From Myxococcota bacterium (GTDB lineage Bacteria > Myxococcota > B64-G9), in assembly GCA_022710975.1 (NCBI GenBank), contig JAKLGA010000002.1:186001-250000 (forward strand): DNA of 64,000 nt, given 5' to 3'. Under the pieces are notes generated by a model. The model did not search any database, was not told where the DNA came from, and saw only the letters and a list, made by a program, of their open reading frames with translations. The number at the start of each line of letters is the position of its first letter. Position 1 is the first letter of the stretch. Both the position numbers and the translations under genes were made by a program. Shown one piece after another: positions 11,870-54,606 of the stretch.

Positions 11870-12499
11870 TCAGAGGACGTGCAGCTCGCGGAGGGTCTGG
11901 CGCAGCGGGGCCACGCCGGTGAAGCGCAGCGCCTGCATGCCGACCGCCAGGGCGCCCTCGACGTTCGGCTCCAGGTCGTCCACGAACAGGCAGCGCTCCA
12001 CGGGCGCGCCCGTGTTCCTGGCCGCCAGGCGGTAGCAGTCGGGGTGGGGCTTCAGCAGGCCGATCTCGAAGCTCAGCGTGGGCCTGGGGATGAGTCCGAG
12101 CCAGGGGTTCTCCGCGAGCTCGAAGGCCCAGTGGAGCGGGTCCGTGTCCGACAGCAGCCCCAGCGGCACCCCCTCGCCGGCCAGCTCGCGCACCAGCGCC
12201 TCCATGCCCGGCGAGGGCAGGAAGATGTCGCACCACTGGCGGCGGAACTCCTCGAAGCCGAGCCCCAGCCCGAAGCGGGCCTCCATGCGGCGGTGGAACT
12301 CCGCGGGCGGGATGCGGCCGGTGGAGAAGTCCGCGAAGGTGGGGTCCGCGAGCACGCGCCGCAGCGCGGCGTCGCTGGCCGGGCCGCTCCCCCCGGCCAG
12401 GCGGCCGGGCAGCCCCCGGGTGAAGTCGAGCCCGACCAGGACCCGCCCGAGGTCGAAGACGACGGCCTGCACCGCGGTGGTTCGGGCGGCGGGCTTCAC
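11870..12499 (-). CDS. HAD-superfamily phosphatase (HAD-IA, YihX-like)
   Basis: This 209-residue protein has the four HAD motifs: VVFDLGRVLV with nucleophile Asp16; LSDTDP with the motif II Ser; the motif III Lys in GLLKPHPD; and the acidic motif IV in CLFVDDLEPN. Replacement of the usual second Asp of DxDGT by Gly matches the YihX-like branch, which acts on sugar phosphates. The GTG start overlaps the stop of the GspE-type gene (GTGA), so the two are translated together. The pairing with a secretion ATPase has no obvious biochemical reason. The substrate is not predictable. Confidence 0.8.
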   Translation of the reverse strand: MKPAARTTAVQAVVFDLGRVLVGLDFTRGLPGRLAGGSGPASDAALRRVLADPTFADFSTGRIPPAEFHRRMEARFGLGLGFEEFRRQWCDIFLPSPGMEALVRELAGEGVPLGLLSDTDPLHWAFELAENPWLGLIPRPTLSFEIGLLKPHPDCYRLAARNTGAPVERCLFVDDLEPNVEGALAVGMQALRFTGVAPLRQTLRELHVL

Positions 12500-14805
12500 T
12501 TGATGCACACCGCCCGGACCTGGTGGTGGTCGGTGTGGCCGGCCAGCACCTTGACGATGCCGTCCTGCATCAGCGTGGTCATGCCGTCCGCCATGGCCTG
12601 GTTGCGGATGTCCTCGACCGGCGAGCGCTTCTGGATCATGCGCTTGATCGGGTCGGTGCCCACCATCAGCTCGTGCAGCGCGATGCGGCCCCGGTAGCCG
12701 GTGCCGGCGCACTCGGGGCAGCCCACGGCCTTGTAGAGCGTCAGATCGGGCTTGTACGCGAGCCCGGTCTTGGCGAACCACTCCTCGCCGTAGTCCTTGA
12801 CCAGGACGGCGAACTCCTCCTCGCTCGGGTGGAAGGCCTGCTTGCAGTGCTTGCACACCCTGCGCGCCAGGCGCTGGGCCAGGATGCCGAGCAGGGAGTC
12901 GGCGAAGTTGAAGGGCTCGATGTCCATGTCGAGCAGGCGGGTGACCGTCTCGGGCGCCGAGTTGGTATGCAGCGTGGAGACCACCAGGTGGCCGGTCAGC
13001 GAGGCCTCGATGCCGATCTCGGCCGTCTCCTTGTCGCGCATCTCGCCGACCATGATCACGTCCGGGTCGGCGCGCAGGAAAGAGCGCATGGTGTTGGCGA
13101 AGGTCAGGCCGATCTTCGAGCGCATCTGCACCTGCCGCAGGCCGCGCTGGGTGATCTCGACCGGGTCCTCGGCGGTCCAGATCTTGAGCTCGGGCGTGTT
13201 GATGTAGCCGAGCGCCGAGTGCAGCGTGGTGGTCTTGCCGGAGCCGGTCGGGCCCACGCACAGGAAGATGCCGTAGGGCTTGTCCATCAGCTCCTTGGTG
13301 ACCCGGAGGTTGCGCTCGCTGAAGCCCATGTCCTCGAGCGGCATGGGCTTGGAGGCGGCCAGGATGCGCATGACCACGTCCTCGTCGCCGCCGCCGCCGC
13401 TCTGGGTGGGGATGGTGGCCACGCGCAGCTCGATCTGGCCCTTGCCCATCTTGAAGCGGATCTTGCCGTCCTGGGGCAGGCGCCGCTCGGAGATGTCCAG
13501 GCGGGCCATGATCTTCAGGCGCGAGACCAGCGCCGCGCGGTGGCTGGCCGGGATCTCCTGGTAGACGTGGCAGATGCCGTCGATGCGGAACCGCACCACG
13601 CACGGATCGTTCTTGCCGTAGGGCTCGACGTGGATGTCCGACGCCCCGCGCTCGTAGCCGTCGATGATGATCTGGTTGGCCAGGCGCACCACGGCCGGCT
13701 CGGTGTCGTCCATGACCTCGGCGGCGGCCTTGGCGGCGGCGGCGGACTCGGCGTCCTCCTCCTCCTCGGCGCCCAGCTCGGTCAGGATGTCGGCCACCTG
13801 CCCGCTGCCCGCCGCGGCGATGTTGAAGGAGGCGTCCACGTAGTCGCCGATGTCCTTGGGCAGGGCCACCAGGAACTGCACCTTGGGGGCGAGCTGCATC
13901 ACCCGCACCGCGTCCGCCTTGGCCAGATCCGAGGGATCCTCCATGGCGACGGTGACCGTCGAGCCGTCCTTGGACACGGGGGCCACCAGGATCTTCTTGA
14001 GGTACTCGTGCTTCAGCCGCTCGCGGAACTCCTCGGGCATGCGCTGGGAGCCGTCGTACAGGAAGGAGGGGCACTCGTAGAAGGCGGACAGGCTCTTGAG
14101 CACCTCGTCCTTGGAGATGCGGTACTTCTCCACCAGCACCTCGGCCACCGGCAGGTTGTTCATGCGCGAGTAGCTGACCGCGTCCTCGAAGTTCTTCTCC
14201 GAGATGAGGTTCTTGTCGATGATGGCGGCGAACTTGTTGGGGCTGCGCTTGGGGGCCATGCGCCGGCGGTTGTAGAAGGCGCTGCCGAGCGTGCGGGCCA
14301 CCTGGTTGGCGGCCTCCAGGTCCTCGGGGGTGAAGGCGTCGCCGCCCACCTTGTTCAGGAGCTGCAGCACGCCCATCAGGTACTTCTCGTACAGCACCGG
14401 GGTGGTCAGCACCTGCTTGGTCTTGAAGCCGGTCTTCTGGTCCCAGGACTGGTCGAACTTCAGCTCAGGGTGGTAGCCCTTGAGCTCCGCGGCGTCGTAG
14501 GCGTTCCTGATGTTGATGGCCTGGCCGGTCAGCGCCACGAAGCCGACCATGGAGGACGAGGTGCGCGGGACGCGGATCTCCTTGACCTCCTCGCCCTGCT
14601 TGAACAGCGAGTAGACCTGCTGGTTCTTGGCGTCCACCGCGTAGATGCTCAAGCGCTCGGCGTCGAGCATGTCCAAGATCTTGGGGCGCAGGTTGACGAT
14701 GATCTCGGCGATGTCCTGGGTCTCGTGGATGAGGTTGATGATCTCGGTGAGCTGGTTCTTGAACTCGAGCGCCTTCTGCAGATCCTTCGCGCTGGGGCCG
14801 GCCAT
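12496..14805 (-). CDS. gspE: GspE/PilB-type secretion ATPase with N-terminal GAF domain
   Basis: The protein has 769 residues. About residues 15-170 look like a GAF domain (LDMLDAERLSIYAVD, VLTTPVLYEKYLMGVLQLLNK). A GspE N-terminal (MshEN-like) region follows at about 185-340, then the T2SS/T4P ATPase core. The core has the Walker A GPTGSGKTTT near residue 520, Asp box/Walker B DPDVIMVGEMRD near 578, and a four-cysteine zinc element (CKHC near 651, CPEC near 697). Such ATPases power pseudopilus or type IV pilus assembly. No other secretion genes are adjacent, so it is an orphan. The GAF domain suggests control by a small ligand or partner. Confidence 0.88.
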   Translation of the reverse strand: MAGPSAKDLQKALEFKNQLTEIINLIHETQDIAEIIVNLRPKILDMLDAERLSIYAVDAKNQQVYSLFKQGEEVKEIRVPRTSSSMVGFVALTGQAINIRNAYDAAELKGYHPELKFDQSWDQKTGFKTKQVLTTPVLYEKYLMGVLQLLNKVGGDAFTPEDLEAANQVARTLGSAFYNRRRMAPKRSPNKFAAIIDKNLISEKNFEDAVSYSRMNNLPVAEVLVEKYRISKDEVLKSLSAFYECPSFLYDGSQRMPEEFRERLKHEYLKKILVAPVSKDGSTVTVAMEDPSDLAKADAVRVMQLAPKVQFLVALPKDIGDYVDASFNIAAAGSGQVADILTELGAEEEEDAESAAAAKAAAEVMDDTEPAVVRLANQIIIDGYERGASDIHVEPYGKNDPCVVRFRIDGICHVYQEIPASHRAALVSRLKIMARLDISERRLPQDGKIRFKMGKGQIELRVATIPTQSGGGGDEDVVMRILAASKPMPLEDMGFSERNLRVTKELMDKPYGIFLCVGPTGSGKTTTLHSALGYINTPELKIWTAEDPVEITQRGLRQVQMRSKIGLTFANTMRSFLRADPDVIMVGEMRDKETAEIGIEASLTGHLVVSTLHTNSAPETVTRLLDMDIEPFNFADSLLGILAQRLARRVCKHCKQAFHPSEEEFAVLVKDYGEEWFAKTGLAYKPDLTLYKAVGCPECAGTGYRGRIALHELMVGTDPIKRMIQKRSPVEDIRNQAMADGMTTLMQDGIVKVLAGHTDHHQVRAVCIK

Positions 14806-39124: not shown

Positions 39125-40237
39125 TCAGAACAGGGAGCGAAGCGAAAGCCCCGGGTAGAAGCGGGCCAGGATGTCCCGGTAGCCGAGCCCGCGCTCGGCC
39201 ATGCCCCGCGCCCCCCACTGGCACAGGCCGACCCCGTGCCCGCGCCCGCGCCCGCGCAGCTCGAGGGCCTGGCCCTCGCGCGACCAGGTGAAGTCGTCCC
39301 CGGGGATGGTGGCCGCGCCCACGAGCTGGCGCAGCCGCCGGGGGCTCAGCTGCAGGCGGCCGCCCTGCGCGGGCACCACCACGAGCTCCCCGCCCGGCGC
39401 GGCGCGCACCTCGGCGATCGCCCCGCGGAGCTCGCCTCGCGCCGCCAGCCGCTCGGCCAGGCGTTCGAGCGGCAGGCTCACGCTCCAGACGCGCTGCGGA
39501 CAGGCCTGGCAGTCGGGGTCGTCCACCTCGCGCAGGTAGGGCACGTCCTGGCCGAAGGCCGCGCTGGCCGCCCGGGTGCGCCCGCCGCAGCAGGCGTGGA
39601 ACAGGGTCTCGGCGGGCAGGTTGCCCCAGGTGAGCACCTCGCCGCGGGTGGCCTCGACGGCCTGGCGGGTGCGCGCGGCCTCCTGGCCGATGCCCTTGTA
39701 CACCTGGTCCAGGGTCGTGGCGGACAGGTCGAAGGGCTCGGCCTCGCGCTCCAGGCGCCGGTGCAGGAAGTAGGTGCGCGCGGCCACGGCCTGGGCCTTG
39801 AGCGCCTCGAGCGGCCAGCTCGAGGACATCTCGGCACCCAGCAGGCCCTCCAGGTAGCGCTCCAGCGGCAGTCGGTTGACCACCAGCAGCCCCCGGCCCT
39901 TCTCCAGGCTCACCTCCAGCTCGCCCACCAGGCTGCGGCCGTCCACGCGGATGGGCCCGCGCGAGGCCAGCAGCACCCCGGCTGGGCGGTGGCGGACGCC
40001 GGACACGCGGATCCCCTCGCCCTCCGGCCGCAGGCTCAGCTCCTGATCCGCGCCGCGCAGCAGCACGTCCCGCACGTCCGCGTCGAGCACCCGCAGGCCC
40101 TCGGCCCGCACGCGCACCTCGGGCGCGCCGCGCACCACGGCCAGCCTGACCACGTACTCCACGTCCGGATCGGCGGCCGCCGAGCCCGCCAGCGGGGCGG
40201 CGGCCGCGAGGGTGAGCCAGACTCCCGCCAGACTCAC
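39125..40237 (-). CDS. SpoIID/LytB-domain protein
   Basis: This 370-residue protein starts at GTG (40237), overlapping the preceding stop (GTGA). It has a signal-like N-terminus (LAGVWLTLAAAAPLAGSAAA). The SpoIID domain includes LPLERYLEGLLGAEMSSSWPL, LKAQAVAARTYFL, FHACCGGRT with a Cys pair, PYLREVDDPDC and RGRGHGVGLCQWGARGMA. In spore formers SpoIID cuts denuded peptidoglycan strands; in Gram-negative bacteria homologues probably act as lytic transglycosylases in the periplasm. No other sporulation gene is present. Confidence 0.9.
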   Translation of the reverse strand: MSLAGVWLTLAAAAPLAGSAAADPDVEYVVRLAVVRGAPEVRVRAEGLRVLDADVRDVLLRGADQELSLRPEGEGIRVSGVRHRPAGVLLASRGPIRVDGRSLVGELEVSLEKGRGLLVVNRLPLERYLEGLLGAEMSSSWPLEALKAQAVAARTYFLHRRLEREAEPFDLSATTLDQVYKGIGQEAARTRQAVEATRGEVLTWGNLPAETLFHACCGGRTRAASAAFGQDVPYLREVDDPDCQACPQRVWSVSLPLERLAERLAARGELRGAIAEVRAAPGGELVVVPAQGGRLQLSPRRLRQLVGAATIPGDDFTWSREGQALELRGRGRGHGVGLCQWGARGMAERGLGYRDILARFYPGLSLRSLF

Positions 40238-41352
40238 TTCTTCACCAGCCGCTCGATGAGCTCCTGGTTGTAGCCGACCACCAGCCGGGCGCCCACGCGC
40301 AGCACGGGCACCCCGGTCACCTCGACGCCCGCGCGCTGGGCCAGCTCCATCATCTCCACCAGGGCCTGCTGGTCGCGCTCGATGTCCTTCTGCTCGAACT
40401 TCACGTCCAGGCTCTTGAGGAGCTCGGCCGTCTTCTTGCAGTACTTGCACCACTTGGTCATGTACAGCACCACCGGCCCGCCCCCGCCCTCCGCGGCCGG
40501 CGCGCCGCCGTCGTCCGGGCGCATGGGCTCGCCGATGGCGGGCTCCGGCGCCTTGTCGGCGGCGTGGCTCTGGGCCACGATCTTGGCCTTGTGCAGGCGC
40601 CCCTCGAGCTCGCGGGTCATGCTGAGCGCGGAGCGGGTCTCCTCGACCTTGCCCTTGGCGAGATCCAGGAGCTTCCAGGCCTCGGTGATGTGCTTGCCGT
40701 GCTGCTCCCGGCCGGAGCGGGCCGCCTTGGTGAGCCAGGTGACGGCGACCTCGTACTCGCCCTGCTCGAAGGCCACCTTCCCGCGCAGGAGCTGGTTGCG
40801 CTGGTTCTCGCCGTCCAGCTTGGTCAACCGCTCGGCCAGCTCCTCGGCCCCGTCCACCAGGTTCATGTCCGGGTGCAGGTAGATCTCGATCTGCAGCCGC
40901 AGCAGCTCCGCGTGCTCGGGTTGCACCCCCAGGCCGCGCTCGCACAGCAGGGAGGCGAAGGCCACATCCTTGTTCTTGAAGAGCATCCGGTCGGCGGCCA
41001 CCCGGTAGACCTCGGCCAGCGCGGCCTTGTCCTGCTCGCCCAGGCGCTGGGCCTCCTTGGGCTCCAGGGCGCCCACCAGATCCTCGAACTTGCCGGCCTG
41101 GGCCAGCGCCTGCATCTCCACCACCTTGGGGCTCAGCCCCTCGGCCGGCTGGGCGGGCCGGGGCGCCGGCTCGGCCGGGGCGGCCTCCGCCCCCCCGTCG
41201 GCCTTGGCGGGCCCGGCCGGCTTGTTCGCGCCTCCCGCGGCCTCCCTGTCCTCGTCGGCGAACTTCTCCGGGGACGGCGAGCGATCGGCGCAGCCCTGTG
41301 CCAGGAGGCCCAGGCAGGCCACGGCGCACGACAACCAGTGGAGCGAGTGCAT
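40234..41352 (-). CDS. Lipoprotein with helical repeats and C-terminal glutaredoxin domain
   Basis: This 372-residue protein has a lipobox at Cys21 (GLLAQGC), a Pro/Ala-rich linker, and a helical TPR-like region (about 85-250). The C-terminal glutaredoxin-type fold has WCKYC near residues 300-304, the following helix, and the conserved TGVPVLRVGARLVVGYN. As a lipoprotein it would work in the periplasm on disulfides or mixed thiols. It is the first gene of the long minus-strand operon through SpoIID-like, queA and tgt. Confidence 0.8.
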   Translation of the reverse strand: MHSLHWLSCAVACLGLLAQGCADRSPSPEKFADEDREAAGGANKPAGPAKADGGAEAAPAEPAPRPAQPAEGLSPKVVEMQALAQAGKFEDLVGALEPKEAQRLGEQDKAALAEVYRVAADRMLFKNKDVAFASLLCERGLGVQPEHAELLRLQIEIYLHPDMNLVDGAEELAERLTKLDGENQRNQLLRGKVAFEQGEYEVAVTWLTKAARSGREQHGKHITEAWKLLDLAKGKVEETRSALSMTRELEGRLHKAKIVAQSHAADKAPEPAIGEPMRPDDGGAPAAEGGGGPVVLYMTKWCKYCKKTAELLKSLDVKFEQKDIERDQQALVEMMELAQRAGVEVTGVPVLRVGARLVVGYNQELIERLVKK

Positions 41353-41513: not shown

Positions 41514-43505
41514 GTGCGGGGATTCCTTCGCAAGAGCATCGCGCGCAAGGTGGCCTTCACCGTGGGCACCGCCTGCGCCCTGGTGGTGGCCGCCGGCCTG
41601 GCCGGGATGCTGATGATCTTCCGGGCCGACGTGGACGACCACGCCCGCACCTCGCTCTCCAACCTGACCGAGGCCATGGCCTCGGCCTTCTCGGTGGTGG
41701 ATCAGCAGTCCGGCCGGCACCCCATCCCGGCCATGCTGGCCGAGCTGGACGCCATCGACACCCTGACCGTGGTGCGGGTGCTCGACCGCGACGGGCGCAT
41801 CGTGTGGTCCAAGCACGCGGCCGAGGTGGGCCAGCCGCTGCCCGAGCCGCTGCTGTCGCGCTTCCTGGCGGGCCGGGCCTCCTACCAGCGCGCCCCGGAG
41901 CGGGACAGCCTGGGGCTGGTGCGCCAGCTCCGCGCCCGGCAGTCCTGCCTGTCCTGCCACGCCGCGCACGGGGCCCGGGCGGCCGGCGACCTGCTGGGCG
42001 GCATCCACCTGGAGGCCTCCCAGCGCCGCCTGACCGGGCGGCTCAGCGCCTACTCCAACCTCCAGATCGCCGCCAGCGCCCTGCTGGTGGCCTTCGTGTG
42101 CGCGCTGACCGCGCTGGCGCTGCGCTGGCACCTGCACACCCCGCTGCAGAAGCTGCACCGCACGCTCACCACCGCCGAGGCCGGCGGCGACCTGCAGCGC
42201 GCCGAGGTGAGCGGCGAGGACGAGGTGGGGCAGCTGGCGGCCGACTTCAACCGGCTGCTGGCCCGGCTGACCGACGCCAGGGCGGCCCAGATCGATCAGG
42301 AGATGGCGCTGGTCATCGCGCGCAAGGATCTCGACCACCAGGCCGAGGTCGGGCAGAAGAACCTCATCATCCAGCAGCAGAACACCGAGCTGTCCCGCAG
42401 CCTCAACGAGCTCGGCCTGCTGTACGAGGTGACCCGGGCGCTGAGCTCGTCCCTCGAGCTCGAGACGGTGCTGGGCGCCGTGCACGAGGTGATCGGCAAG
42501 ACGCTGGGCTTCCACCGCTTCAGCGTGCTGCTGTGGGACGAGCGCCGGGCGCGGCTCGAGGTGCGCCACGTGTACGGCCCGCCCAACCCCCAGGCGCCCG
42601 TGGGCGCGCTGCTCAGCCCGACCCACGGGCCGCTGGCCGAGGCCATGCGCAAGGGCCACTGGGTGCTGACGCCCGACGTGGCCGTCCTCCGGCGCGAAGG
42701 CCCGATCGAGCGCGCCCTGCCCGAGCGCGGCGCGTTCCTGTGCATGCCCATGCGGGCCAAGGGGCGGGTGCTGGGCCTGCTCACCTTCACCCGGCCCGAG
42801 CCGGACAGCTTCCCCCCGGAGGAGGTGAAACTCCTCGAGGCCATCGCCAACCAGGCCGGGCTGGCCCTCCTCAACGCCCAGCTCTACCAGGAGAAGCTCG
42901 AGCTGTCGGTGACCGACGAGCTGACCAAGCTGGCCAACCGCCGCCAGCTCCAGACCCGCCTGTCCATGGAGTGGGATCGGGCCAGCCGCTTCGGCCACGC
43001 GCTCTCGCTGCTGATGGTCGACATCGATCACTTCAAGCGCTACAACGACGTCAACGGCCACCTGCTGGGCGACCAGGTGCTCCACGGCGTGGCCCGCCTG
43101 CTCGAGACCAGCACCCGCAAGGTGGACACGGTGGCCCGCTTCGGCGGCGAGGAGTTCGTCGTCCTGCTGCCCGGCCAGGACAAGGCCGTGGCCATCGCGG
43201 TGGCCGACAAGCTCCGCCGCGCCGTGGCCGAGGCGGACTTCCCGCGCATGGCGACCCAGCCCGAGGGCCGCATCACCATCACCGTCGGGGTGGCCTCCCA
43301 CCCCGAGGACGCCCAGGAGCCGACCCAGCTCATCGACTGCGCCGATCTGGCCCTGTACGTGGCCAAGGGCGCCGGCCGCAACCAGGTGGTGCCCTTCGAG
43401 GCCAGCATGCAGGAGGCCGCCGCGGCCCGGGCGGTCGAGAAGCAGCGCGGCCGGGAGCGCAAGGTGCGCCGGCGCTCCGGGGACGAGCCGGCCGGACCGA
43501 GGTAG
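41514..43505 (+). CDS. Membrane diguanylate cyclase with c-type heme motif, HAMP and GAF domains
   Basis: This 663-residue protein starts at GTG (41514). The first membrane segment is at about 15-35. The periplasmic sensor (about 40-175) contains CLSCH (Cys145, Cys148, His149), the covalent heme c signature. A second membrane segment lies near 185-203, then a HAMP domain (HLHTPLQKLHRTLTTAEAGGDLQ), a coiled coil, a GAF domain (about 305-455) and GGDEF. The catalytic signature is GGEEF (544-548), and RKVD five residues before it matches the inhibitory I-site. Signal input is therefore likely redox or gas state via heme, with cyclic-di-GMP as output. It has its own promoter. Confidence 0.88.
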   Translation: MRGFLRKSIARKVAFTVGTACALVVAAGLAGMLMIFRADVDDHARTSLSNLTEAMASAFSVVDQQSGRHPIPAMLAELDAIDTLTVVRVLDRDGRIVWSKHAAEVGQPLPEPLLSRFLAGRASYQRAPERDSLGLVRQLRARQSCLSCHAAHGARAAGDLLGGIHLEASQRRLTGRLSAYSNLQIAASALLVAFVCALTALALRWHLHTPLQKLHRTLTTAEAGGDLQRAEVSGEDEVGQLAADFNRLLARLTDARAAQIDQEMALVIARKDLDHQAEVGQKNLIIQQQNTELSRSLNELGLLYEVTRALSSSLELETVLGAVHEVIGKTLGFHRFSVLLWDERRARLEVRHVYGPPNPQAPVGALLSPTHGPLAEAMRKGHWVLTPDVAVLRREGPIERALPERGAFLCMPMRAKGRVLGLLTFTRPEPDSFPPEEVKLLEAIANQAGLALLNAQLYQEKLELSVTDELTKLANRRQLQTRLSMEWDRASRFGHALSLLMVDIDHFKRYNDVNGHLLGDQVLHGVARLLETSTRKVDTVARFGGEEFVVLLPGQDKAVAIAVADKLRRAVAEADFPRMATQPEGRITITVGVASHPEDAQEPTQLIDCADLALYVAKGAGRNQVVPFEASMQEAAAARAVEKQRGRERKVRRRSGDEPAGPR

Positions 43506-43552: not shown

Positions 43553-45448
43553 CTACGGATTGACCGAGATCTCGGCGTCGACCGGCAGCGACTGGGCGTT
43601 GAAGGTGTCCCACACCACCAGGCGTACGATGTAGGTGCCCACCATGTCGGGGGTGAAGGTGGTGACCGGATCCTGGGTGCTGTCGAGCTGGGCCTGGGCC
43701 ACGTTGCCCTGGGCGTCGGTCGGCTTGAACAGGAACGACCAGCCGTAGGCGTTGACGCTGTCGCCCGGGTCCGGATCGAAGCTGCCCGAGCCGTCCAGGC
43801 TCACCTCCTGGCCGAGCCCGTTGATGGTGAGCGTCTGGGGGGTGACCACCGCCACCGGTGGCAGGTTGGCCGGCGTGCCCGAGTTCAGCGCCATCAGGAT
43901 GTAGGGGTTGCTGTCGTTGGGGCTGTCGTGGCCGATCTCGAGCTGGCCCATCTCGTCCGCGATGAGCGTGTTGTCGTGGAAGGTCATGGTGAAGGAGATC
44001 GATTCGGTCGGGGCCAGCACGATGGGGGTGCCCGGGAAGTCCACCGGCAGCCCGAGCAGGCCGAAGACGGCCGGATCGCCCGGGTTCAGGGTGAAGGCCA
44101 TGGCCGAGATGGTGAGATCGGCGTAGCCCACGTTGCGCAGCGTCACCGGCTGCTCCGCGTCGCCGCCCTGGGGCACGTTGACGAACTCGACCGCCGCGCT
44201 GGGCGTGACCTCCAGATCGGGTCGCACGTTGCCGCCGAGGGTCACCACCACCTGCGGCTCGTCCGGGTCGTTCGAGTAGATGATGATCGAGCCGTCGTCC
44301 GCCCCCACGTCCTGCGGAGCGTAGGTCACTTGGAGGGTCTGCATGCCGGCCACGGGCAGCTCGAAGCCCTGGTCGGGGGTGACGCTGAACTCGCCGGCCA
44401 CCGACCCGCCGCTCACCTCGATGCCGGTGATGGTGAGCGCGCCCGTGCCGGTGTTGTGCACCGAGATGTCCGCCGTGGCCGAGGAGCCCTGGGTGACGCC
44501 CGTGAAGGGGATGTGCTCGGGGTTCACGTCGATGTCGGCCTCGGCCGACATGGCCAGCATGCGCACGCTGAAGGTGCCGTCCGGGACGTCCGTGTCGTTG
44601 GTGTCCAGGTCGAAGCCGGCCGCGTCGGCGCCCTCGGCCGCCGGGGCGTAGACCAGCGCCACGGTCGCCTGCATGCCTGGCTGGATGGTGAGGGTCTGCT
44701 CCCCGGGCTCGAGCAGGCGGAAGTCGTCCGGCGTCCCGAAGGTCGGGTCGAAGGCGAAGCCCGCCAGGTCGAGCGGGATGTTGCCGACGTTGCGCAGCGT
44801 CGCGCGCAGCTCGCGGTTCTCCCCGGCCGGCACCTCGCAGAAGTTGAAGGCCAGCCGCTGCGGGTGGGTGTTGGTGACGTTTTCCAGGATGACCCGGCAG
44901 GTGAGCGCCCCGCCGCCGCCCGGGCACTCCTCCACCGAGTCCGGCGGGCACTCCACCTCCAGCTCGGCGTCGGGCGGGGCGCCCGTGCCCGAGAGCTGCA
45001 CCTCGCAGGGGTTGTAGGGCCCGGGGCAGGCGTCGTGGTCGTTGGTGGTGACGTCCAGGGTGTCGAAGTCCGCCGCGTCGTCGGAGGACGGGTCGTACTG
45101 GATCAGCACCAGCATGCTGGCGCCCGGGCCCAGGCTGGCCGGGACCTGGGGGTCCACGCTGCCGGTCAGCGGGTCGCGGATGCCCACCACCCGGAAGCGG
45201 CTCTGGGCGCCCAGGCGCGGGGCCAGGGCCTGGAGCTGCAGGCCGGCGAACCCGGTGTTGCTGACGGTCAGCTCCTGGATGCTGGGGTAGCCCACGGCCA
45301 CGTGCTCGAACTGCAGCACCGTGGGCGACACCTCGAGCTGCGGCAAGACCGTGAGGCTCTCCTCGCACCCGCCGGCCCCCACCGCCCCCGTCAGGGAGAG
45401 CGCCAGCACCACCCGCCCCAGGCACGTCATCCGGCTGCAAGCACGCAT
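43553..45448 (-). CDS. Lipoprotein of choice-of-anchor-D/ASH repeats
   Basis: This 631-residue protein has a lipobox at Cys28 (GAVGAGGC). It then has Ig-like repeats beginning LEVSPTVLQFEHVAVGYPS, with recurring elements such as VSNTGFAGLQL, LRNVGNIPLDLAGFAFDP, VHNTGTGALTITGIEVSG and LRNVGYADLTISAMAF, typical of choice-of-anchor-D/ASH modules. The C-terminal part is PKD-like (VSLDGSGSFDPDPGDSVNAY). It is a surface or periplasmic adhesive scaffold without enzyme motifs. It starts 39 bp downstream of the M24 peptidase stop. Confidence 0.82.
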   Translation of the reverse strand: MRACSRMTCLGRVVLALSLTGAVGAGGCEESLTVLPQLEVSPTVLQFEHVAVGYPSIQELTVSNTGFAGLQLQALAPRLGAQSRFRVVGIRDPLTGSVDPQVPASLGPGASMLVLIQYDPSSDDAADFDTLDVTTNDHDACPGPYNPCEVQLSGTGAPPDAELEVECPPDSVEECPGGGGALTCRVILENVTNTHPQRLAFNFCEVPAGENRELRATLRNVGNIPLDLAGFAFDPTFGTPDDFRLLEPGEQTLTIQPGMQATVALVYAPAAEGADAAGFDLDTNDTDVPDGTFSVRMLAMSAEADIDVNPEHIPFTGVTQGSSATADISVHNTGTGALTITGIEVSGGSVAGEFSVTPDQGFELPVAGMQTLQVTYAPQDVGADDGSIIIYSNDPDEPQVVVTLGGNVRPDLEVTPSAAVEFVNVPQGGDAEQPVTLRNVGYADLTISAMAFTLNPGDPAVFGLLGLPVDFPGTPIVLAPTESISFTMTFHDNTLIADEMGQLEIGHDSPNDSNPYILMALNSGTPANLPPVAVVTPQTLTINGLGQEVSLDGSGSFDPDPGDSVNAYGWSFLFKPTDAQGNVAQAQLDSTQDPVTTFTPDMVGTYIVRLVVWDTFNAQSLPVDAEISVNP

Positions 45449-53401: not shown

Positions 53402-54097
53402 CTAGAGGATCCCGATCGTGTAGGCCAGGGTATAGTAGCCGCCGATGCCGAGGAAGACCACCGCGGTCAGGCGCCGCATCCAGCGTTCGATCACCGCCAG
53501 GGCGTTGAAGGCCTTCGAGATGCGGTTGGCGGCGAAGGCCAGGATCACCGAGAAGACCACCACCGGGAGCGCCGTCCCCACCCCATAGAGCGACGGCAGG
53601 AGCACGCTCGAGTCGTGCCGCACGGCCAGGGGGATCAGGCTCCCGAAGAAGAGCGCCGCCGACAGCGGGCAGAACGCCATCGCGAACACGATCCCCAGCA
53701 ACCCCGCGCCCCACAGCCCGATCTTGTCCACCCGCGCCTTCAGCTTCGCCGAGACGCCCGCCCCCCCCGTCCAGGGCCAGGGGATCACGTCGAGCAGCAG
53801 CAGGCCGACCACGAGCAGCACCGGCCCGACGATCAGGTTCATGTACCGCTGCAGGAACATCGAGACGCTGGGGGTGGAGACCAGGCTCTCGACCACCAGC
53901 AGCGCCACCAGGAAGTAGGTCAGGGTCCGGCCCAGGGTGTAGAGCAGCCCGGACACCAGCACCAGCACCGGGCGATCGATCCGCTTGCTGGCGTAGGAGA
54001 TGGCCGCGATGTTCGTCGCCAGCGGGCAGGGGCTGATGGAGGTCAGGATCCCCAGCCAGAGAGCGGTCCCGACCGCCATCCAGAACGGCTCCATCAT
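53402..54097 (-). CDS. arsG: ArsG-type aromatic arsenical efflux permease
   Basis: This 231-residue protein has six predicted membrane segments. TSISPCPLATNIAAISYASKRI at the N-terminus and FAMAFCPLSAALFFGSLIPL in the second half form the internal duplicate of the CcdA/DsbD-like superfamily, with the pattern of ArsG permeases. Established work on ArsEFG describes reduction of nitro-aromatic arsenicals and export of the amino product by ArsG. Its ATG overlaps the arsF stop. It is the last gene of the seven-gene arsenic operon. Confidence 0.78.
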   Translation of the reverse strand: MMEPFWMAVGTALWLGILTSISPCPLATNIAAISYASKRIDRPVLVLVSGLLYTLGRTLTYFLVALLVVESLVSTPSVSMFLQRYMNLIVGPVLLVVGLLLLDVIPWPWTGGAGVSAKLKARVDKIGLWGAGLLGIVFAMAFCPLSAALFFGSLIPLAVRHDSSVLLPSLYGVGTALPVVVFSVILAFAANRISKAFNALAVIERWMRRLTAVVFLGIGGYYTLAYTIGIL

Positions 54098-54606
54098 TTT
54101 GCCCCGGCCTTGGCGAGGTAGACCCTGATCCGCTCTGCGGTGTAGTCCATGAGCTTGGGAGCGTCGTGGGCAAGGTCCCAGACCTTGTCGCAGTTCTCCC
54201 ACTCGAGGGTCTTGCCGCCCTTGACCCACGCCACGACCATCGAGCTGAAGGAGATCTGGAACTGCATGGCGAGGGCCTTGTTGGCGTCCTCGTCGAAGTT
54301 GATCTCCCGGAACACGAGCTTCCTGGAGGCCAGCTCCGCGGCGAAACGCTCCTGGACGGCCTGCTCGATGCCCGCCTGGATGCCCAGGCAGGTGGGGCAC
54401 CGCCGGTCGCCGTGGAAGTAGTAGACCAGCACCCCGTCCGTGAGGGTCTCGGCCCTGACCGCCTCCGGCGCCTGGGCGGGTGAGTCGCCTGGCTTCGCGG
54501 CGGGCGGATCGCCTCCCCCCGCCGTGGATTGGCTGCAGCCCACCGCCGCCAGCGCGCCGACGGACAACACGAGCGAGAGGATCACCAGCGTCACCTGCCT
54601 GTTCAT
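54094..54606 (-). CDS. arsF: ArsF-like nitroreductase subunit lipoprotein
   Basis: This 170-residue protein has a lipobox at Cys24 (GALAAVGC). A thioredoxin-like fold follows, with VYYFHGDRRCPTC (Cys70, Cys73), the FREINFDED strand and FSSMVVAWVKGGKTLEW. This matches the ArsF family of nitrophenyl compound reductase subunits. It would act outside the inner membrane with ArsE in reduction of nitroarsenicals. It starts 17 bp after arsE. Confidence 0.75.
   Translation of the reverse strand: MNRQVTLVILSLVLSVGALAAVGCSQSTAGGGDPPAAKPGDSPAQAPEAVRAETLTDGVLVYYFHGDRRCPTCLGIQAGIEQAVQERFAAELASRKLVFREINFDEDANKALAMQFQISFSSMVVAWVKGGKTLEWENCDKVWDLAHDAPKLMDYTAERIRVYLAKAGAK

Follow-up and report, generated by a model that had tools for sequence, protein, structure and literature searches.

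The locus described here is a diguanylate cyclase gene with a GTG start, at positions 41514 to 43505 on the forward strand of the window, by which is meant the whole 64,000-nucleotide stretch of Myxococcota DNA that was analysed. It specifies a protein of 663 aa arranged in the order first transmembrane helix (TM1), predicted periplasmic heme-c sensor, second transmembrane helix (TM2), HAMP, GAF, and GGDEF, and all of its features are given below on the forward strand. A hydropathy scan placed TM1 at about residues 17–35 (41562..41618) and TM2 at about residues 185–203 (42066..42122), these residue numbers allowing for the 22 residues that the stop-to-stop frame has ahead of the start. The sensor domain between them, about residues 36–184 (41619..42065), was recognised from profile matches to structures 3b47 and 3b42 and from an hhalign comparison with a second cyclase of the same genome, L046. 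Within it lie Phe59 (41688..41690), which by inferred placement is near the position of the ligand Met60 in GSU0935, His69 (41718..41720), the distal heme ligand predicted from alignment and a count over the loop, and CLSCH, the predicted heme-c attachment motif (residues 145–149, 41946..41960). HAMP (residues 203–253, 42120..42272, Pfam E 2e-8), GAF (about residues 314–454, 42453..42875, E 3e-17), and GGDEF (about residues 464–626, 42903..43391, E 5e-46) all score above the Pfam cut-off, the Pfam matches themselves covering residues 314–452 of GAF and 466–624 of GGDEF. A preliminary description of this DNA had reported a CxxCH motif in a periplasmic sensor, followed by HAMP, GAF, and a GGEEF with an I-site, and this layout was borne out, with CLSCH lying between two hydrophobic segments, the Pfam domains in that order, and both GGEEF and RKVD readable.

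The active-site GGEEF (residues 544–548, 43143..43157) and the I-site R535-K-V-D538 (RKVD, residues 535–538, 43116..43127) were both located in the protein, the I-site standing five residues ahead of GGEEF. GGEEF, RxxD, and the D-I-D metal-binding stretch are intact, the R and D of the I-site are invariant in 8/8 family orthologues, and the protein is predicted to be an active cyclic-di-GMP synthase with an I-site. No promoter-like or terminator-like sites were found near the gene. About 27 kb away, the window carries a gene for a type II/IV secretion or pilus ATPase with an N-terminal GAF and an MshEN domain (12496–14805, reverse strand). MshEN domains bind cyclic di-GMP, and this ATPase is a possible effector of that molecule.

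Judged from its sequence, the periplasmic sensor very probably carries covalently bound heme. The preliminary description had taken a lack of CxxCH conservation among homologues as grounds for abandoning this idea, and the motif was found in every complete sensor among the cyclase orthologues (101/101). As these 101 were selected by CxxCH itself, the informative part is the search for orthologues made without using the motif, in which a long loop with no CxxCH was seen only in three copies, all from family f22. CLSCH appears not to be a chance match, because CxxCH is kept throughout even though 20 of the sensors, from outside the window's family, share just 22–28% identity with the window sensor. 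Cytochrome c maturation genes had been proposed as a further check, and a heme-attachment system is present, with ResB and CcsA (system II) adjacent in the window genome (G000:C4:37328-39495). The window's class is represented in the comparison by the nine genomes of its family, of which all nine have ResB and eight CcsA (PF01578); the remaining one, G006, is heme-bearing and has no PF01578 match, and its ResB match sits at a contig end. On this gene content, heme attachment would be possible in the window organism. The window also encodes a DsbD_2/cytochrome c biogenesis transmembrane protein (53402–54400, reverse strand; PF13386, E 1e-14), which is a possible periplasmic thiol-reduction partner for heme-c maturation.

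A MAFFT alignment of 24 sensors had five invariant columns, H69, S99, C145, C148, and H149, the histidine of one row (L006) being spurious since its loop was masked. In L-INS-i alignments, the loop His fell into one column for only 12/33 and 9/101 sensors, because indels vary the length of the loop and scatter the columns, and the count was therefore made over a region, from the alignment position of residue 60 to that of residue 75, leaving out the masked G006. Counted in this way, a His lies within the loop between the first two helices in 100/100 readable sensors, whose loops comprise 78 distinct sequences of 14–38 residues. Non-overlapping control stretches of the same alignment, from which those over CxxCH were excluded, contain His in 6 to 69 of 101 sensors; stretches that overlap the loop score 98–100, and the control stretches are shorter than many of the loops. 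What is claimed is simply a His in this loop, which is otherwise variable, and as the orthologues are related, 100/100 overstates the independent evidence. The residue had escaped the preliminary description, and it is the probable second heme ligand.

Position 59, whose equivalence with Met60 is approximate, is F in 94 of the 101 sensors, Y in 4, I in 2, and a gap in one, and is never Met. Among nine other CxxCH sensors, six (L046, L061, L067, L069, L082, and L083) have a Met in an AMLAGD-like context, in L060 the Met is less similar, and L056 and L084 do not follow this pattern. The Met of L046 aligns with the first Met of YMMKGD in 3b42, which is Met60 by the numbering in which C140 is chain residue 106. 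Since Phe59 stands near the place of Met60 and the loop His is conserved, a histidine is predicted as the distal ligand, and His69 probably replaces Met in that role.

No Pfam sensor model scored above its cut-off on the window sensor. The best sub-threshold match was sCache_3_2 (16–18 bits against a cut-off of 28.4), and the Tll0287-like model PF11845 fell short of its gathering score (14.0–16.2 bits against 24.1); both of these weak matches cover the right stretches of the domain. At E ≤ 1, PF11845 matched 3/24 sensors (best E 0.0064), and PF21563 (Mcp40H-20_sensor) only 2/24. A profile built from 24 sensors, each from a different genome, matched two Geobacter structures of heme-c sensors, weakly but collinearly: 3b47 at E 0.007, 3b42 at E 0.02. 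The structure of Tll0287 (5b82) came up at E 0.61. The profile also matched c-type cytochromes, the best of them, a cytochrome trimer with repeated weak matches (E 8e-4), ranking above 3b47, and as these are matched through CxxCH, the motif supplies part of the scores of 3b47 and 3b42.

The link to the two structures by way of L046 is stronger than the direct profile match. L046 (L046:1210-2517, forward strand, at G000:C24:333613) is a further CxxCH diguanylate cyclase encoded in the window genome, with a layout by eye of TM, CAQCH sensor with a Geobacter-type Met, TM, and GGDEF, and its match to PF21563 (E 9e-6) is just under the cut-off. The 24-sensor profile aligned with the L046 sensor across window residues 70–177 (hhalign probability 96%, E 4e-9), and the L046 sensor in turn gave E 7e-4 against 3b47, over 108 residues, and E 0.06 against 3b42. 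AlphaFold models of the sensor were poor (mean pLDDT 50 with two sequences and 38 with one), and a Foldseek search with the first of these (pLDDT 50) was led by the Cache sensors WalK and CitA, with no match at E ≤ 0.001, a result that carries little weight. A scan of the genome contigs gave one distant relative, L019, which by eye is a histidine kinase. The profile comparisons point to the window sensor being a distant relative, below the Pfam cut-off, of the heme-c Cache/PAS-like sensors GSU0582/GSU0935 and Tll0287.

The distribution of the cyclase across the phylum was determined by profile searches of 195 genomes. The sensor profile matched 61 of these, its matches including histidine kinases and other proteins, and because such a query finds only proteins that bear the sensor, a HAMP-GAF profile built from cyclase copies with and without it was used instead, at a cut-off of E ≤ 1e-40. 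Matches were obtained in 146/195 genomes, which rules out a rare architecture, with one match each among the candidates scored, at most 13 per genome, so that single copy is provisional; among the 49 unmatched genomes is G004, from the window's family. By their N-termini, the 146 orthologues comprise 102 with a CxxCH sensor, the motif being at the expected place, 40 with a short loop between TM1 and TM2, 3 with a Cache-like domain that lacks the CxxCH segment, and 1 that is truncated. Of the 102, G151 is truncated where its contig ends, and two more, G107 and G147, stop before GGDEF. Frames classed as lacking the sensor (n = 41) have 5–28 residues between the last two helices in 39 cases, and G059 has the same by eye; G071, truncated by a contig end, was left out to give the 40, among which the weakest call is G015 (no HAMP start found, E 5e-47).

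Heme-bearing and sensorless orthologues occur together in families f1 (4 and 4), f13 (87 and 3, one of the three being G071), and f15 (2 and 3). Sensorless copies alone were found in f4 (1), f7 (2), f8 (12), f9 (11), f10 (1), f12 (2), and f17 (2), and heme-bearing copies alone in f3 (1), f14 (1), f19 (2), f24 (1), and f25 (4). Almost every orthologue in the phylum has either the sensor complete with its heme residues or no sensor at all. The preliminary description had regarded the combination of heme c and GAF as uncommon, a view that does not hold, as a heme c-HAMP-GAF protein is present in 102/195 phylum genomes, nearly always with GGDEF in frame, and fusions of heme-c Cache domains to GGDEF/EAL enzymes are already in print. 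The N-terminal 203 residues of the cyclase had no match at E ≤ 1e-5 in plasmid and phage collections.

Four sensorless copies in the window's family are syntenic with heme-bearing ones, and such orthologues, without the whole sensor, were missed in the preliminary description. The divergent neighbour of the cyclase in the window (40234..41352, reverse strand, its start inferred from a lipoprotein-like signal) encodes a putative lipoprotein with a C-terminal glutaredoxin domain (CKYC; PF00462, E 4e-12). This gene is on the divergent side in 6/7 family loci read (4/4 sensorless and 2/3 heme); it is adjacent in five of those six, about 3 kb off in G007, and was not found in G002. A weaker homologue (25% identity, E 1e-12) lies beside the f14 orthologue (L096). 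The lipoprotein possibly keeps the heme-c thiols reduced, its membership in the system being putative, as that of a neighbour. On the other side, convergent with the cyclase, is a gene for a HYDIN/ASH-type Ig-repeat protein (43553–45448, reverse strand). Ig-like and Xaa-Pro peptidase genes occupy that side in 4/7 family loci read (G002, G003, G005, and G007); within 5–6 kb they were found neither in G001 nor in G008, and in G006 the contig stops on that side.

A single loss within the window's family, with the four sensorless copies forming one clade, was rejected by two trees: AU tests against such a clade, a group picked by trait and not by tree, gave p 3e-5 for the core-region tree and p 2e-67 for the SecD tree. 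The SecD tree splits the family, with support of 99/99, into two halves that both include heme-bearing and sensorless genomes, and given a heme-bearing ancestor this implies two or more losses; the sensor was apparently lost at least twice in this family. Missing heme-attachment genes were discarded as the cause, ResB/CcsA being present in all four genomes with sensorless copies. On a phylum core tree of 66 labelled rows, parsimony required 12 changes between heme and its absence, a soft number given several poorly supported nodes and midpoint rooting. Loss, not gain, is the preferred direction because the domain is homologous and occupies the same position in distant families.

A different kind of reduction was seen in the f22 orthologues of G172, G178, and G179 (L236, L235, and L237), whose genomes are 1.3–1.8 Mb. 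They retain a Cache-like domain, which aligns with the sensors as one and the same domain and is gapped where the others have CxxCH; at the usual loop position all three lack a His, two having none anywhere in the loop and G178 one at its start. As they group with the heme-bearing f24 and f25 (support 100/99), their heme segment was probably lost; these are three genomes of one lineage, and represent one event. A broader history can be put forward tentatively, at not quite even odds: the His/His heme-c Cache sensor would be the ancestral periplasmic input of a phylum-wide cyclic-di-GMP synthase, working by a redox- or NO-driven switch of the distal ligand, and would have been removed whole repeatedly, one small-genome lineage having dropped only the CxxCH segment and the ligand His while keeping the Cache scaffold, the opposite of the insertion event from which heme-c Cache domains have been proposed to arise.

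The favoured reading of the protein itself, to which we assign a probability of about 0.6, is that a His/His heme c with His69 as distal ligand is held in a Cache-type sensor, and that a redox- or NO-driven ligand change sets cyclase activity. One heme c would be attached to the periplasmic Cache-type domain through Cys145 and Cys148, with His149 as proximal ligand and His69, from the loop that follows the first periplasmic helix and close to the place of Met60 in GSU0935, as distal ligand. The trigger would be oxidation or reduction of the heme, or NO displacing the histidine. By analogy with ligand switching in the Geobacter sensors, the change in heme state is proposed to shift the N-terminal helices and to pass by way of TM2, HAMP, and the GAF-linked dimer to GGDEF activity, on which the I-site would exert product feedback.

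Redox state has close to an even chance of being the signal and NO falls somewhat short of one, redox being slightly likelier. The window genome has a bd oxidase and no match to PF00115, a family that covers heme-copper oxidases and also NO reductases. This combination fits low-oxygen life without favouring either signal. The idea that the sensor goes with aerobic respiration was also considered, and set aside as resting on too few genomes: bd oxidase is present in 4/4 heme-bearing and 2/4 sensorless family genomes, and PF00115 in 2/4 against 0/4, with one family genome in this comparison, G001, 70% complete. Published work on related domains bears on the same question. As reported, a stand-alone sCache_heme protein has a protein distal ligand, redox-like behaviour, and weak NO binding, and its C59A variant, from which the Cys ligand has been removed, still releases NO fast (PMC12889525). 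Since this variant is still not a strong NO binder, the signal cannot be read from the distal ligand alone.

Other explanations of the locus have to be weighed against the His/His switch. Heme c could be attached with its distal site open or water-bound, making the protein a selective NO sensor in which the loop His is structural or second-sphere. There is a precedent in the signal-fused heme-c Cache protein of Pseudomonas azotoformans, which is reported to bind NO tightly without an axial Cys (PMC12889525), but a His with no role as a ligand fits poorly with its presence in the loop of every readable sensor and its absence from the usual place in the three CxxCH-less relatives, and in the window genome NO metabolism of its own is not evident from PF00115; on balance, we regard this as unlikely. 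CLSCH could instead be a pair of thiols that works as a disulfide redox switch, in the manner of CSS-motif phosphodiesterases, or a metal site, in either case with no heme; this is far less probable still, as the entire CxxCH is invariant, including His149, for which a disulfide switch has no need, and the domain is related to solved heme-c sensors, although the glutaredoxin-domain lipoprotein gene found on the divergent side in most family loci would suit such a thiol-based role.

The heme domain could also be accessory, with activity set by GAF and dimerisation and the periplasmic part dispensable. That would accommodate the 40 sensorless orthologues, including the four syntenic copies in the window's own family, and the retention of GG[DE][EQ]F in 33/41 of the sensorless frames, and in Myxococcus xanthus DmxA the GAF region is described as required for dimerisation and activity (PMC11255338). 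Yet 102 of the 146 orthologues have held on to the sensor with an invariant heme motif, and some sensorless copies have lost or degraded GGDEF: there is no readable motif in G041, G042, G158, G159, and G160, where three frames end after GAF and two are degenerate, which suggests that sensor loss can accompany loss of the enzyme role. G019, G028, and G040 also have no in-frame GGDEF motif, possibly through contig ends or frameshifts. A dispensable heme domain is accordingly considered quite improbable, and a His/His heme c that governs the cyclase is preferred.

No study of this cyclase was found among the titles and abstract openings of the open-licence literature, where the searches led to the preprint PMC12889525 and to papers on Geobacter and Myxococcus. 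Already known or proposed, in PMC12889525 and PMC8396549, are heme-c Cache domains, fusions of these to cyclic-di-GMP enzymes, and a possible role in NO or redox sensing. On our reading of the open-licence literature, what is new is the conserved loop His, the phylum-wide spread of this cyclase, the existence of relatives without CxxCH, and a sensor that is nearly always either whole or absent. In a 2022 review, Table 3 gives assayed O2 and redox sensors in cyclic-di-GMP networks and describes none of them as heme c (PMC8846402), so that heme-c control of a cyclic-di-GMP enzyme, a prediction from sequence, is absent from the assayed sensors of that table. The family offers a natural experiment in its syntenic orthologues with and without the sensor, to which the relatives with only the scaffold, lacking the CxxCH segment, can be added, and in which the contribution of heme is directly comparable, while His69 is a residue-level prediction drawn from the cyclase family, which probably extends to genera that have strains in laboratory use.

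The nearest experimental setting for this cyclase is M. xanthus, a species described as having 17 GGDEF proteins, 11 of them predicted to be active, and in which 20 of 24 single GGDEF, EAL, or HD-GYP mutants are without a developmental phenotype (PMC4877007). DmxA of M. xanthus, presumably of the same phylum, resembles the window protein as a membrane cyclase with GAF and GGDEF, but its layout is described as six TM helices and two GAF domains, with no periplasmic heme domain, which rules out that the cyclase at 41514–43505 is DmxA itself (PMC11255338).

Heme-c Cache domains fused to GGDEF/EAL enzymes have already been described under the name sCache_heme (DUF3365/Tll0287-like, PF11845), and the window protein resembles them in a periplasmic domain predicted to be of Cache type, a single CxxCH, two TM helices with HAMP, and fusion to a signalling output, these outputs including GGDEF/EAL enzymes in sCache_heme (PMC12889525). 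Structurally, that group is defined by a CxxCH element that sits as an insertion between strands 3 and 4 of a Cache fold. Their distal ligands are given as Cys or water, whereas a conserved loop His is predicted for the family of the window protein; the string 'myxococc' does not occur in the main text of that paper (PMC12889525). In the same account, the signal-fused heme-c Cache protein that was characterised in vitro lacks a distal ligand supplied by the protein and acts as an NO binder; slow NO dissociation and no stable oxygen complex are given for that of P. azotoformans.

Three Geobacter proteins complete the comparison. GSU2622 is described as having a heme-c motif, HAMP, and GAF ahead of a cyclic-di-GMP domain, a likeness by description and not by sequence, but its output is HD-GYP, of phosphodiesterase type, in place of a cyclase (PMC8396549). 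GSU0582 (3B47) and GSU0935 (3B42) have a collinear domain with CxxCH in the same place and the same succession of TM, sensor, TM, and HAMP, and differ in that their output is an MCP and not a cyclase. In GSU0935, Met60 is a switchable ligand that is displaced by NO and CO, and a redox-linked change of spin and coordination has been proposed (PMC8396549). Where the Geobacter sensors have Met60 or water as distal ligand (PMC8396549), the window protein has a Phe near that position and a conserved His in the longer loop that follows.
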